From assembly GCA_002898075.1 (NCBI GenBank), contig BDSV01000018.1, positions 1 to 44,365 on the forward strand: a stretch of DNA of 44,365 nucleotides. The letters run 5' to 3'. Below the pieces are notes generated by a model. It ran no database searches. It had not been told where the DNA came from and saw only the letters and a program-made list of their open reading frames with translations. Shown here in pieces: positions 29,073 to 34,762 of the stretch (positions within the stretch are counted from its first letter, which is position 1; the number at the start of each line of letters is the position of its first letter). Origin of the DNA: a bacterium BMS3Abin03 (GTDB lineage Bacteria; Bacteroidota; Ignavibacteria; Ignavibacteriales; Ignavibacteriaceae). The position numbers and the translations under genes were made by a program.

Positions 29073-29480
29073 TCAGCCCTCGGGTAAAACACTAAAATCC
29101 TTTACCTTTCGGCTATCCTCTAAAAAAATTGAAATTTTCTTTACTTCATCAAATAGAAAGTTTTTATCCAGATACCCATCTGCAATCTTTTCTGCAGATT
29201 GGTATTCACCAAATCTTTTTCCGTCCATATTCATCAATACCACAAAAACGCTTTGGTATTTTTCCTTTATGTAATTCACTGTTTTTATTGCTTCGTAATC
29301 TGCAAGATCAATATTTATAAGAATAAGAGATGGAATAAACTGTGCACAAATCTTTTTCAGTTCGTCAAGATTTAATGCAAGCCCGGCATATAATAAATTA
29401 TCGGTTTTTTTCATTGATTCTTTAACCAAATCAACAAACTTTTTATCATTATCAACTATTATTGTAGGTAATTTATTCAT
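29073..29480 (-). CDS. Stand-alone pseudo-receiver domain protein
   Basis: A 135-residue CheY-like receiver with no output domain. Aligned with the normal receiver at 29653, PSLILINIDLADYEAI stands where that protein has PELILMDINMPNLNGI, so the phospho-acceptor Asp is Asn56. The conserved Ser/Thr position is Met (VVLMNMD), and the acidic pair is VDND. Lys in LDKNF is kept. It therefore should not be phosphorylated in the usual way. It sits between the response regulator gene and the tetraheme cytochrome gene, all on the same strand. It may act by protein binding or by a small ligand. Fold fairly certain; role unknown. Confidence 0.85.
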   Translation of the reverse strand: MNKLPTIIVDNDKKFVDLVKESMKKTDNLLYAGLALNLDELKKICAQFIPSLILINIDLADYEAIKTVNYIKEKYQSVFVVLMNMDGKRFGEYQSAEKIADGYLDKNFLFDEVKKISIFLEDSRKVKDFSVLPEG

Positions 29481-29652
29481 CTCTGTATAAAACTGTTATC
29501 AATTTTGTTACCAACATAACATTAATAAGCAATAAAGTAAATTCCCCGAGTATGGGTATTTTTCATATAAATTTATTACCCCTTTGAGTAATATTTTAGT
29601 TATTATAGAATAACCCTTTAGGGCTATTGTATTATTAAATAGAGAATTTGTC

Positions 29653-30306
29653 TCATATCAAGCCGTTGGCAATCGCATAACTTATAACTTCATTAAAGTT
29701 TTTTGCATGAAGCTTTTTAATAATATTTTTTCGATGTTTAACAACGGTGAATGGACTAATAAACAGTTTTTCAGCAATTACTTTGCTCGTATAACCTTCA
29801 GAAACAAGTTTTACTACTTCTAACTCACGTTTTGTTAAGGGGCTCGACTGGGTAGTTTCCTGGTAGAATTCGCTTATGTTTTTGCCGGTATGATAATCTA
29901 TTATCTTTTTTGTTACCTCTTTGTTAAAGTAATCTTCCCCTTCCATAACCTGTTTGATAGCCGTAACAAGTTCGGTTATTTCGGAGTCTTTATATATGTA
30001 GCCATTAATTCCTGCAGTGAGCGCTTCAAAAATAAATCTTTCGTTGTCGAGCATTGTAAGTATTATTATTTTTACATCCTTGTTAAATTCTCTTATTTGT
30101 TTTGCTGCTTCAATTCCATTCAGGTTAGGCATATTTATATCCATCAGTATAAGTTCCGGCATTAACTCTTTTGTTTTTTCAACTGCTTCGTTTCCATCGC
30201 CAGCTTCACCAACAATGTCTATATCATATTTGCTTTCAAGAGCAAGTTTGAATCCCTGTCGTACCCATTTATGATCATCAACAAGCAGGACTTTAGTTTT
30301 ACTCAT
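29653..30306 (-). CDS. NarL/FixJ-type response regulator
   Basis: A 217-residue regulator when started at ATG 30306 (MSKTKVLLVDDHKWV), which has AAAGGAT upstream; the ORF track uses ATG 30315. Receiver domain: acidic pair Asp10-Asp11, phospho-acceptor Asp56 in LILMDINMP, Thr in ILTMLD, Lys in IYKDSEI. Output: a LuxR-type helix-turn-helix (LTKRELEVVKLVSEGYTSKVIAEKLFISPFTVVKHRKNIIKKL). It overlaps the 3' end of the histidine kinase gene, so the two form a two-component pair. Likely targets are the surrounding cytochrome genes, by proximity only. Confidence 0.95.
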   Translation of the reverse strand: MSKTKVLLVDDHKWVRQGFKLALESKYDIDIVGEAGDGNEAVEKTKELMPELILMDINMPNLNGIEAAKQIREFNKDVKIIILTMLDNERFIFEALTAGINGYIYKDSEITELVTAIKQVMEGEDYFNKEVTKKIIDYHTGKNISEFYQETTQSSPLTKRELEVVKLVSEGYTSKVIAEKLFISPFTVVKHRKNIIKKLHAKNFNEVISYAIANGLI

Positions 30307-32023
30307 CTTTATCATCCTTTAATGGAATAGCAAAATATATTTCTGTTCCCCTGCCCGGTTCTGATTGGATTGAAAATTCTCCACCGGATATTTTAGTTCG
30401 CTCCCGCATAGAAATTAATCCATATCCAATATCCAGTATGGTTCCTTTGTCTGTATCGTTAACATCGAATCCTACACCATTGTCTTTTACTGACCCCCGA
30501 ATCATCCTCGAGTTAAAATGCAGGTCAATTTGTACCTCGGTTGCATTTGCATGCTTTGAAATATTATTTAAAGCTTCCTGAATTATCCTGTAAACATTCA
30601 GCTCAATTTTTTTATTGCGTACTTTAACGTTACCGAATACGTTAATCATAGCTTTTATATGCGTAACATCGGAAAATTTATGTGCCATCAATTGAATAGC
30701 ATCTGTTAAGCCATAATTATCAAGTTCGGCTGGTCGTAAAGAAAAGATTATCGATTTAATATCTCTGCTTATATCGATAATTTGTCTTTTAGCCTCTTCT
30801 ATCTTCTCGTTGTTTTCAAAAGTTTTTTCTTCAATCATTTCGAGACCAAGCTTCGCAAGAAGTAATTTTTGTCCTATCTGATCGTGAAGCTCTTTAGCAA
30901 CACGTTTTCTGTCCTGCTCAAGAATATCAATTACCGCGCTGCTTATTCTTTTCTGAAGATCCAATTCACGGTTTATATCTTCTCTTTGAAGCACATCCGT
31001 TCTATCCTCCAGTTGACAGATTATTCTGTTCACTTTACCCTTTTCATCTTTTATATCAAAAATATTAAAGATATAAACTTTCTCTTCCTCTTCCAATAAA
31101 ATAGGTTCGGTTTTAAGTCGTCCGCCTTTACGTATAAGATTCTTGATGTGTGACAAATAACCGTGCGATATAAGATATTCATTGTCGTATATATGTATAT
31201 CTCTCACATTGTTTTGGAAAATTTCATTCCATTTCAGATTTGTTTCAATTAATTTTCCTCCCTCATCATAAATAGCAATTGCAAAAGGCGATTGTTCAAT
31301 TAAAGATTCTACCTCCTTTGTTCTGCGGCGTATTTTTATTTCGAGTTCTTCGTTTATTTTCCGCAATACTTCTTCAGACTCTGCTAATTTTTGTTCGGTA
31401 GTTTTTCTTAAAGTAATATCCTTGTTGCTTGCACGATGTCCCAGATATATTCCTTTTGAATCGAATACGGATTGACAGGAGTGTTCAATCCATCTTATTT
31501 GGTTATCCTTGGTAATTATTCTAAAATCAAAGGATTCAAGGTCGGTTTCACATAAAGACTGGATTGTATGCTTGATAAATTTGTCTTTATCCTCAGGATG
31601 AACAATCTGTTCCAAAATAGTATTATCATTCATAAATTCTTCCGGTTTGTAACCGGTTATTCTTTCGGCAGACGGGGAGACATAATTCAACCTCCTGTCT
31701 TTAGTTATCCAGTATTCCCAATCTTTAGCAAAATCGGAAACAAGCTTAAATCTTTCCTGAACTTCCTGAAGATGCGTTTCAACCTTTCTTTGCTTAAGTA
31801 TCAAGTGACTTACAAAAATTCCGAAAATCAAAAAGGTTACAACTATCATTATCCGCTCAAAATGCATATGAGGTGATAGATGGAAGAGCAGAACATTTTG
31901 AAAGGAACTATTAAAAAAGAAAAAGTAGTCTATTATTGCATCGAATATCCAGCTTATAATGCCAAAAATCAGAGCAATAAGTATTATATTGAACCTGATT
32001 TTATTTGTTTTACTTAGTTTCAA
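30299..32023 (-). CDS. PAS-containing NarX-type sensor histidine kinase
   Basis: A 574-residue membrane kinase. Two N-terminal helices (about 11-37 and 57-76) enclose only ~20 residues, so there is little room for an outside sensor. PAS domain 1 (about 92-205; WEYWITKDRRLNYVSPSAERITGYKPEEF) with its PAC segment and PAS domain 2 (about 236-345) follow. The HisKA_3 box is RKRVAKELHDQIGQ with phospho-accepting His380. The ATPase domain shows ALNNISKHANATEV, DNGVGFD and YGLISMRERTKISGGEF. No cysteine cluster or haem site is visible in the PAS domains, so the signal is unknown; membrane or redox sensing is plausible. It lies 57 bp after the 12-site cytochrome gene and overlaps the regulator gene. 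Confidence 0.94.
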   Translation of the reverse strand: MKLSKTNKIRFNIILIALIFGIISWIFDAIIDYFFFFNSSFQNVLLFHLSPHMHFERIMIVVTFLIFGIFVSHLILKQRKVETHLQEVQERFKLVSDFAKDWEYWITKDRRLNYVSPSAERITGYKPEEFMNDNTILEQIVHPEDKDKFIKHTIQSLCETDLESFDFRIITKDNQIRWIEHSCQSVFDSKGIYLGHRASNKDITLRKTTEQKLAESEEVLRKINEELEIKIRRRTKEVESLIEQSPFAIAIYDEGGKLIETNLKWNEIFQNNVRDIHIYDNEYLISHGYLSHIKNLIRKGGRLKTEPILLEEEEKVYIFNIFDIKDEKGKVNRIICQLEDRTDVLQREDINRELDLQKRISSAVIDILEQDRKRVAKELHDQIGQKLLLAKLGLEMIEEKTFENNEKIEEAKRQIIDISRDIKSIIFSLRPAELDNYGLTDAIQLMAHKFSDVTHIKAMINVFGNVKVRNKKIELNVYRIIQEALNNISKHANATEVQIDLHFNSRMIRGSVKDNGVGFDVNDTDKGTILDIGYGLISMRERTKISGGEFSIQSEPGRGTEIYFAIPLKDDKDE

Positions 32024-32079: not shown

Positions 32080-33765
32080 CTATGGATATCTTTTGGGATT
32101 ATGTTGTCTTCTGTGACACCTTAAATAACATCTTCCGGCAAATGTACCATCATCAATAAATTCTAATCGACCCATCATTGCGGGCTGTACAATTGATATA
32201 TCAAAATTTATAAGATGAGTATTATTAGTTGTATTACCTTGAGAACTGCTTATTCCGTGTGGATCGTGACATACATTACAGGGAGTTCTTATATTTACTA
32301 TATGTTTTTTATGTTTACTGAAGCTTTCATTATTTAAAATCGAATTGCGGTCGTGGCACTGGTAACAAAGTTCATAAGCTAAATAAGATTCCTGAGTATA
32401 ATCTGCTGTTTCGTAATTATATTTTAAGATATGTGGATAAATTGAACCGTGAGGTCCCGCGGGTGCGTTCGAACCATTGCTTGCATGGCAATCGGTACAG
32501 TAAATTACACTCGATTCGGATAAAGGAGAAATCAGACTCGGTACATTCGGATTAGCTCCCTGACCTTCTATCGGATGATATGATGGATTACCAATATCGA
32601 ACTCTAGCCTAACATTACTTTGTTCAATCTGCCGGGTTGTCGGGCTTCCGGGCTTATCGGGGCTATCTGCATGACAACGGTAGCAGAGTTCGTATTGATA
32701 CTGAATTTCAGAAACCGGATTACCGTCAGCATTAACTCCCTTTACACCTTGAATAAATCCGTTTGCGTCGGGAGGATTTGCCGTAACATCATTTACAGCA
32801 TGTGGATTGTGGCAATCTGCACACTCCACGTGTTTGATTTGTACAATGTTCGGCTCTTCAGGATCATGAATACCGTTATATGCAGCTACGTTATGACTGT
32901 ACGGTTTGTTTAATTCTGATTGAATATTTTTATTAGCCACGTTACCGTTGTGGCAAACAAGACAATTATTTTCTTCCGGTGTAAAATTCATCAACCTGAA
33001 TTGACTGCTTGCCGTATGAGGATTATGACAATTTTCACAAGCATTTTCAGTTACGGTTGTATAGTTTGTGTGAAACCAAGGATTTGTGCCGGAGCCGTTC
33101 CAAGTAGCGTTTGAAGTTTTATGAGCTGAATTATTCCAAAAATTCTTTTGATGACAATACAAACAGAGGTTGGAATATTGATTTGTTACAACTAAAAAAT
33201 CTCCGTTCACATTCAAATGTGGATCATGGCATGCCGTACATTCCAAATAACCATCTTCCAACTTAACAGGACCGGTTAATGTGGATGGATCGGCAAGTTC
33301 TCCGTCCTGCGATGCAAGCGTGGAATTATATAAAAATGAAACCGGATGATCATCGGATAAGTCTGTAGAGAGATTTGTTGTTCCGGGTGGCAGGGTAGTA
33401 ATGCCGCTTACAAAAACAATATCGTTTGTTCTGCTCAAAACATTTCCAAGCGCTATCGTTCCGTCATGACAAGAAAGACAAAGAATTGATGACCTGTCCG
33501 GCTGACCCGGATTACCTTGAATAGTTGAACTGCTGTATAAAGTATATGTAACACCTGGATCAGGTTTATTCCACAACGGTGATCGCGGACTGCTATTGTG
33601 CGGAGTATGACAGAAAATACATATTTCGGTTTCTGAAACAGCTTTAATTGTTCCGGGCCCGCTCACAGACAAATTATGCCTGGTACTAACGATAGTTTGA
33701 GAGTAAAAATTAATTCCGTAAGTAAAGAATATAACCAGAAAGAAGAGATGTATTTTACTTTTCAT
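32080..33765 (-). CDS. Large multiheme c-type cytochrome (11 CXXCH plus CX3CH)
   Basis: A 561-residue exported protein (signal peptide to YSQ). The eleven CXXCH sites are CIFCH, CLSCH, CTACH, CLYCH, CENCH, CLVCH, CADCH, CYRCH, CTDCH, CYQCH and CNVCH; CYLRCH near the C-terminus adds a CX3CH site, giving up to 12 haems. The first ~200 residues (CIFCHTPHNSSPRSPLWNK, LSDDHPVSFLYNSTLAS) repeat the plan of the small tetraheme proteins. The rest has NPH-type doubled motifs spaced by long loops, common in surface cytochromes. There is no type-IX sorting domain and no lipobox. It overlaps the upstream NHL gene by 11 bp, so the two are translated together. Surface or periplasmic electron transfer is inferred. 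Confidence 0.92.
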   Translation of the reverse strand: MKSKIHLFFLVIFFTYGINFYSQTIVSTRHNLSVSGPGTIKAVSETEICIFCHTPHNSSPRSPLWNKPDPGVTYTLYSSSTIQGNPGQPDRSSILCLSCHDGTIALGNVLSRTNDIVFVSGITTLPPGTTNLSTDLSDDHPVSFLYNSTLASQDGELADPSTLTGPVKLEDGYLECTACHDPHLNVNGDFLVVTNQYSNLCLYCHQKNFWNNSAHKTSNATWNGSGTNPWFHTNYTTVTENACENCHNPHTASSQFRLMNFTPEENNCLVCHNGNVANKNIQSELNKPYSHNVAAYNGIHDPEEPNIVQIKHVECADCHNPHAVNDVTANPPDANGFIQGVKGVNADGNPVSEIQYQYELCYRCHADSPDKPGSPTTRQIEQSNVRLEFDIGNPSYHPIEGQGANPNVPSLISPLSESSVIYCTDCHASNGSNAPAGPHGSIYPHILKYNYETADYTQESYLAYELCYQCHDRNSILNNESFSKHKKHIVNIRTPCNVCHDPHGISSSQGNTTNNTHLINFDISIVQPAMMGRLEFIDDGTFAGRCYLRCHRRQHNPKRYP

Positions 33766-34762
33766 CTTTTTTTAATAGTTTGAAAATTTGAATTCTTGAA
33801 TTAAAACTATCCGCTACATAGATATAGTCTTCATCATCAATAAATATACCTGTTGGTAACCAAAATTTACCGTTACCCGAACCTTTACCGCCGAAGTAAT
33901 AGAGAAACTCTCCGTCTTTGTTGTATGCTTGAATCGCATTATAAAGACCATCGACGATAAAAATGTGCCCATAACTATCTACCGCCACACCTTTGGGACG
34001 GGCAAAATATCCGGTAGCATCCCCTGGTTCACCAAAAGTGTTAATAATCTCACCTGTAGGGCTTAAAATCTGCAAGCGGAAATTCATTGAATCAATCACA
34101 TATACTATGCCATTCTTATCTATCCAGATATATGTTGGAAAATTAAATTGCCCCGGTTCGGTGCCCCTGCTGCCAACTACTTTTTTAAATTTCCCGCTCA
34201 TATCGAAAATTGAGATTTGGTGTGATAAAGTTTCTACTACCCAAACTTCTTTGGTAAGAATGTTATACGCTATTCCTGTTGGCTGATTCAATGATTTGTT
34301 TTTAATAAAAGGACTGATAATATCGTCTTTTTCGTTGTACATATAAACCATGTTTTCTTTGGAATCGGTAAATAAATAAACTCCCCTTTTCATCTCACAA
34401 ATGTCAACTAATGAAGGAAAAGTTTTTCCATTACCATTCATTACTATCTGAAATTCTTCCTCTAAAGTATCGATTCTAACAATATAACCCGCCCCCTGAT
34501 CCAATACAAGCAACCTGTTCCAACTGTCTTTAATTACCTTCATAGGTTTGACTAATTGGATTACATCTTCGCCGAATAACCAATCAACGATTTTTTCACC
34601 TATCGATTTATCTTTTACAACATCTTCATTTGTAGAAAAAGAACGGACAAATTCTACTGTAAATTTATCACCCGGTTTATCATTGTTATTTTGTGCTATT
34701 GCTTGAAATACAAATAGGAAGGAAAGAATTATAGAACAATATCTCAAATTAAAAGATGACAT
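33755..34762 (-). CDS. NHL-repeat beta-propeller protein, exported
   Basis: A 335-residue protein with a cleavable signal (FVFQAIAQ). NHL blades include EPGQFNFPTYIWIDKNGIVYVIDSMNFRLQILSPTGEIINTFG, RPKGVAVDSYGHIFIVDGLYNAIQAYNKDGEFLYYFGG and LPTGIFIDDEDYIYVADSFNSRIQIFK. KVIKDSWNRLLVLDQGAGYIVRID starts the propeller. It resembles the lipoprotein at 27266 but lacks the lipid anchor. It overlaps the 12-site cytochrome gene by 11 bp and is first in the whole minus-strand cytochrome region. The NHL-then-cytochrome order occurs twice in the window, which suggests a working pair. Confidence 0.88.
   Translation of the reverse strand: MSSFNLRYCSIILSFLFVFQAIAQNNNDKPGDKFTVEFVRSFSTNEDVVKDKSIGEKIVDWLFGEDVIQLVKPMKVIKDSWNRLLVLDQGAGYIVRIDTLEEEFQIVMNGNGKTFPSLVDICEMKRGVYLFTDSKENMVYMYNEKDDIISPFIKNKSLNQPTGIAYNILTKEVWVVETLSHQISIFDMSGKFKKVVGSRGTEPGQFNFPTYIWIDKNGIVYVIDSMNFRLQILSPTGEIINTFGEPGDATGYFARPKGVAVDSYGHIFIVDGLYNAIQAYNKDGEFLYYFGGKGSGNGKFWLPTGIFIDDEDYIYVADSFNSRIQIFKLLKKDEK

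Follow-up and report, generated by a model that had tools for sequence, protein, structure and literature searches.

A stand-alone aspartate-less receiver between operator-like sites and multihaem cytochrome genes in bacterium BMS3Abin03

The stretch of DNA analysed here, referred to as the window, spans positions 1 to 44,365 of contig BDSV01000018.1 (assembly GCA_002898075.1) of bacterium BMS3Abin03, a member of the Ignavibacteriaceae. It carries a histidine kinase gene, a response regulator gene and a gene for a stand-alone receiver protein, in this order, with cytochrome genes on both sides of the trio (Table 1), in agreement with a preliminary description that had placed the receiver inside a cytochrome cluster. 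When the kinase is read by eye it has H, N and G boxes and two N-terminal hydrophobic stretches. The regulator, with an intact receiver and a LuxR/GerE helix-turn-helix, is a NarL-family protein, and its closest solved structures in the PDB include VraR and NarL. The 659-aa protein of the cluster has no family match in Pfam or NCBIfam. It is 56% identical to its ortholog, compared with 72-82% for the neighbouring proteins, and is probably a fast-evolving outer-membrane barrel.

Table 1. Genes and operator-like elements of the locus, in window coordinates
Feature	Position	Strand	Remarks
Second NHL-repeat protein	33755..34762	-	first gene of the conserved locus
Multihaem cytochrome, 561 aa	32080..33765	-	5' of the kinase, within the conserved locus
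Histidine kinase, HisKA_3 type, with PAS domains	30299..32023	-	Pfam
NarL-type response regulator	29653..30315	-	intact receiver and LuxR-type HTH; Response_reg 102 bits, GerE 60.5 bits (Pfam)
Probable operator of the adjacent regulator, TAGCCCTAAAGGGTTA	29611..29626	-	2 mismatches in 14 against the E. coli NarL 7-2-7 site TACCCCTNNAGGGGTA
Second palindrome, TACTCAAAGGGGTA	29577..29590	-	no 2-bp spacer between its half-sites; a weaker candidate for an operator
Third element, TACCCATACTCGGGGA, within AAAATANNCANNNNNGGNGNATTT-like sequence	29543..29558	-	same relative place in 5 of 6 loci
Stand-alone pseudo-receiver, 135 aa	29073..29480	-	ATG start; ORF, Pfam, alignment, model and fold search; key residues Asp10, Asn11, Asn56, Asn84, Lys106
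First operon cytochrome, 203 aa	28418..29029	-	4 CXXCH
NHL-repeat lipoprotein, 354 aa	27266..28330	-	
Cytochrome, doubled-CXXCH type, 192 aa	26678..27256	-	
Protein of 659 aa	24688..26667	-	probable outer-membrane barrel of a porin-cytochrome set, judged by position
Multihaem cytochrome, 337 aa	23663..24676	-	doubled CXXCH
Multihaem cytochrome, 227 aa	22927..23610	-	

The stand-alone protein consists of one receiver domain, and neither its reading frame nor Pfam leaves place for an output domain, as had been stated before. The Pfam Response_reg profile matches residues 7-115 with 31.6 bits, just over the curated cut-off of 30.2. An AlphaFold2 model, for which the input alignment held four sequences from the window locus and its relative, reached a mean pLDDT of 79 and a pTM of 0.78. 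Its strands and helices alternate as they do in receivers, and residues 52-56 form strand 3; beta-5 is absent from the strands of at least three residues that DSSP assigns, and the last ten residues are predicted to be disordered. The top Foldseek matches are receiver domains or receiver-containing proteins only, NarL, RcsB, Spo0A and CheY included. By profile and fold the protein is thus a receiver domain (PF00072); the preliminary description had argued that the fold is kept and had proposed structure prediction as a check, and the predicted structure agrees.

The active site of this receiver is degenerate. Of the receivers aligned, only the protein and its ortholog have Asn in the acceptor column, the 30 others having Asp, and in the model Asn56 closes beta-3, where an acceptor would be. 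The earlier claim that the acceptor aspartate is replaced by Asn56 stands. The switch position had been described as Met. The Ser/Thr is indeed absent, but the residue is better read as Asn84 than as Met83, because the adjacent regulator has 28 residues from acceptor to switch and 22 from switch to Lys, and the series Asn56-Asn84-Lys106 fits both spacings exactly; a gapless alignment to the single-domain receiver of genome G015 sets Met83 on its Thr. The second metal-binding acidic residue has also been lost (Asn11), a change absent from the preliminary description. Retained are Asp10, the Lys that had been described as kept (Lys106) and an aromatic residue at K-3 (Tyr103), so two of the five catalytic residues remain. 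Judged by its residues the protein is therefore aspartate-less, a pseudo-receiver for which normal phosphorylation should not be possible. About 4% of all receivers are aspartate-less, with Asn accounting for 16% of the substitutions (PMC4395418, PMC12632262). Chance is therefore not at issue, and what counts is the conservation of this state. RitR shares with the pseudo-receiver both the Asn at the acceptor position (Asn53) and the retained first acidic position (PMC4395418), although RitR is an orphan with a DNA-binding output domain, whereas the pseudo-receiver has no output domain and adjoins a kinase-regulator pair.

A search of 97 relatives and then of 164 genomes of the order yielded a sole ortholog, in genome G003 of the same genus (78% identity, E 4e-66). 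Asn11, Asn56 and Asn84 are identical in it. The preliminary description had held that an Asp in orthologs at the same locus would indicate decay and not function; in the two orthologs available (n = 2) all three Asn are kept. At E 1e-7 no further ortholog appeared among the 164 order genomes, the next best match, in G015, being a single-domain receiver of 30% identity which has its acceptor Asp intact and adjoins another NarL-type regulator. The 396 phylum genomes gave no other ortholog-level match, their matches being mostly NarL-type receivers, and none was found in plasmids. Among GTDB contigs the single match was the same G003 contig, from a metagenome bin labelled Bacteroidetes bacterium Dive96_bin1.139.

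Between the window and G003 the pseudo-receiver gene has a pN/pS of 0.176, within the range of 0.14-0.38 for eight neighbour genes, at a dS of about 1.2, which is near saturation. It has thus stayed under ordinary constraint although the two copies separated long ago. Local decay of the gene was considered and rejected, given the conserved G003 ortholog and the purifying selection. Changes are fewest in residues 78-107, which span beta4-alpha4-beta5 (2 of 30 residues, compared with 28 of 105 elsewhere; Fisher p 0.02, for regions picked by eye and post hoc). The beta4-alpha4-beta5 region is part of the usual signalling face of receivers. One cysteine, Cys45, is common to both orthologs. The C-terminal tail KVKDxSVLPEG (29073-29110) is also kept in both, despite its predicted disorder, and may be a contact motif.

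The gene order of G003 is identical to that of the window: kinase, regulator, pseudo-receiver, 203-aa cytochrome, NHL protein, cytochrome, a 657-aa probable barrel and two cytochromes. Elsewhere in the window's genus the regulator and the NHL protein have no close match, so that within the family both genomes with the locus (2 of 2) also have the pseudo-receiver. Outside the genus, the nearest relatives of the regulator include those of G136, G153 and G116 (55-56% identity) and G119 (47%), which belong to another family. All four genomes have kinase-regulator-cytochrome loci in the same order and without the pseudo-receiver, the G119 locus lying on a short contig. The gap from regulator to first cytochrome is 232 bp in G136, 620 bp in G153, 468 bp in G116 and 358 bp in G119, and tblastn at permissive settings detected no remnant of the pseudo-receiver in these four gaps. 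Either gain in the window's lineage or loss in the other family may explain this difference. Since the pseudo-receiver is absent from four equivalent loci, the circuit must be able to work without it.

In all six loci the gap 3' of the regulator carries tandem palindromes of the form TACCCCTTTAGGGGTA. In Escherichia coli the engineered narG -89/-89 NarL site is TACCCCTAAAGGGGTA, a 7-2-7 inverted heptamer (PMC4549865). When this published site, with a free centre and up to two mismatches, was used as the pattern for a search of 115 kb from the six loci, 10 of the 11 sites fell within the gaps directly behind the regulator, which make up 1.75% of the sequence (binomial p about 3e-17, the kinship of the six loci being ignored). 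In the four loci that have no pseudo-receiver the sites are paired, at a distance of 25 or 26 bp, and the cytochrome follows them directly; those of the window and G003 lie between regulator and pseudo-receiver, just upstream of the latter. An element of the form AAAATA...GG.G.ATTT comes after the palindromes in five of the six loci. The looser pattern TANCCCTNNAGGGNTA, drawn up post hoc, has its only exact match in the 3.76-Mb genome at 29611-29626. With one mismatch it occurs 8 times in the whole genome against 5 for a reversed control, which is barely above, so single weak matches elsewhere mean nothing. The degenerate NarL pattern TACYYMT-N2-AKRRGTA with 3 mismatches gave no excess over chance in the window, and for this reason only the stricter NarL site was used. 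The palindromes are probably a specific operator for a NarL-type regulator of electron-transfer clusters.

We also considered an RNA hairpin or terminator as the source of the palindromes and rejected it, as no terminator-like site was found in the region and stem position 3 is mismatched in most of the other-family sites. The window leader folds somewhat better than shuffled sequences (z -2.3). The six gaps with these palindromes, which are near-identical to the E. coli NarL 7-2-7 site, are 29481-29652 of the window and its counterparts at loci L038, L106, L107, L108 and L111.

Only 43 bp separate the stop of the pseudo-receiver gene from the first cytochrome in the window, with a strong ribosome site (AAGGAGG) within this gap, and no intrinsic terminator was found between 28900 and 29800. 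Because operator-like sites lie 5' of it, a cytochrome begins 43 bp 3' of it and no terminator-like site intervenes, the pseudo-receiver is probably the first gene of a cytochrome operon, which would be co-transcribed and controlled by the adjacent regulator through these sites.

With this layout in mind, one may propose a role for the pseudo-receiver as a phosphorylation-blind feedback partner of the two-component pair beside it. According to this model, the kinase would activate the NarL-type regulator, which would act at the operators ahead of the pseudo-receiver, and the pseudo-receiver would be made together with the cytochromes as the first product of their operon. It would then bind back to the same pair, most likely to the kinase at the place where the true receiver docks, and lower the autophosphorylation of the kinase, so that cytochrome production would be limited by negative feedback. 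Sequence evidence supports the receiver fold and the loss of its active site, its conservation under selection, the order of the genes and the presence of operator-like sites; from these we infer the binding of the regulator at the sites, co-transcription, the contact with the kinase and the sign of the feedback. We put the probability of the model, including its preferred target and effect, at about one half.

Precedents for such feedback exist. FixT is a single-domain receiver that is induced by FixLJ and inhibits the autophosphorylation of FixL (PMC7078487). In both Sinorhizobium and Caulobacter, FixT resembles the pseudo-receiver in being a single domain associated with a PAS histidine kinase and response regulator pair, which in the case of FixT governs respiratory genes. 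FixT is made under the control of the system on which it acts, and the layout suggests the same for the pseudo-receiver, from the candidate operators. Unlike FixT, the pseudo-receiver is aspartate-less and is probably the first gene of the target operon. The likeness is one of layout and receiver fold; Caulobacter FixT, moreover, has a four-Cys Fe-S motif which the pseudo-receiver, with its one shared Cys45, does not have. Osp of Rhodobacter sphaeroides has a degenerate active site and a promoter activated by CtrA, the regulator of the pathway that Osp blocks, and inhibits CckA (PMC9430884). It too is a single-domain receiver, but it keeps the acceptor Asp and has lost the acidic pair and the Lys, whereas in the pseudo-receiver the Lys remains and the acceptor, the switch and one of the acidic residues are gone. 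The pseudo-receiver would be comparable to FixT and Osp by layout only. The preliminary description had suggested that the protein could titrate or modulate the nearby kinase or regulator. Modulation is made likelier by the gene order, the probable operators upstream and the precedents of FixT and Osp, but titration is just one option, and direct inhibition of kinase autophosphorylation appears better precedented. Two further points speak against the model: at an identity of only 19-22% between the pseudo-receiver and the intact receiver beside it, a shared kinase-docking surface is not evident, and the best operator-like site of the window, of 16 bp, departs from the E. coli site at two positions.

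A less probable alternative, the next in rank, is that the pseudo-receiver heterodimerises with the receiver of the adjacent regulator and alters its dimerisation on the tandem operators, so that output is either damped or boosted. The argument from co-expression serves this alternative as well as it serves kinase feedback, beta4-alpha4-beta5 is the best conserved stretch of the protein, and WhiI with BldM and, as proposed, CmrT with CmrR are precedents (PMC12632262). WhiI and CmrT, however, have a DNA-binding domain, which the pseudo-receiver does not. Like the window, the CmrRST locus of Clostridioides difficile encodes an aspartate-less receiver protein next to a kinase and a normal regulator (PMC12548384). 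CmrT, however, carries Glu at the acceptor position and is a DNA-binding regulator of the OmpR type, while the pseudo-receiver is a bare receiver with Asn.

It is somewhat less likely again that the pseudo-receiver is a phosphorylation-blind sensor or adaptor whose partner lies outside the pair, controlled by a ligand or by redox state, or serving in the localisation of the cytochrome machinery. Quinones, c-di-GMP or proteins are bound by known pseudo-receivers, and in some a single Cys serves as a redox switch (PMC12632262); both orthologs share Cys45 and the C-terminal tail, and co-expression with cytochromes fits equally well. However, the only shared Cys lies elsewhere than the DD+19 site of known redox-controlled regulators, the four-Cys motif of Caulobacter FixT is missing and the tail is predicted to be disordered. 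A decaying relic or neutral passenger gene would be consistent with ortholog-level matches in only 2 of 164 order genomes and with the absence from four equivalent loci, but is very improbable for a gene that is intact in both genomes at 78% identity, a dS of about 1.2 and a pN/pS of 0.18, with identical active-site Asn residues. Least credible is that intracellular deamidation turns Asn56 into Asp and so keeps the protein phosphorylated: such reversion of an acceptor Asn has been reported (noted in PMC4395418), but with the switch Ser/Thr and the second metal-binding acid gone, an Asp at position 56 would have a poor site.

To our knowledge, little is known about the control of multihaem cytochrome clusters outside model species, and the feedback model, if true, would add a regulatory layer to such clusters. 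Aspartate-less single-domain receivers as such are already known, and it is the setting of this one that appears new. We found no description of a multihaem cytochrome operon led by a pseudo-receiver beside a kinase and regulator, in a literature coverage that most subscription journals lie outside. Tentatively, a bare aspartate-less receiver, inserted between the operators and the first cytochrome of an electron-transfer operon that was already under two-component control, might act as a feedback element or a cytoplasmic redox sensor that sets cytochrome dosage; if true, extracellular electron transfer would have a layer of control that has not been described for it. A 2025 review called the on-off switching of bacterial pseudo-receivers a mystery, and only 2 of the 20 atypical regulators that it covers are non-orphans (PMC12632262). 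Here a bare pseudo-receiver adjoins its probable kinase and regulator, within the probable target operon of the latter, and natural loci with and without it allow comparison. Three small proteins and one promoter would thus suffice for a direct test of the models of a binding competitor and of feedback.

As to its origin, the pseudo-receiver appears to be an inactivated form of an arrangement that is common. Duplication of the adjacent regulator is not favoured as its source; in a tree test, descent from that regulator was not rejected (AU p 0.059), and the branch of the pseudo-receiver is long. Its grouping with the single-domain receivers of G015 and G027 is weakly supported. Related NHL and doubled-CXXCH clusters in G008, G013 and G069 (loci L072, L074 and L075) begin with genes for another kinase, for a regulator that by eye has an NtrC-like layout, its receiver being followed by a long C-terminal part, and for a stand-alone receiver that has its Asp; the three-part layout is that of the window, with unrelated regulators. 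Single-domain receivers with intact Asp also adjoin NarL-type regulators in several genomes of the phylum (L011, L012, L019, L027 and L032).
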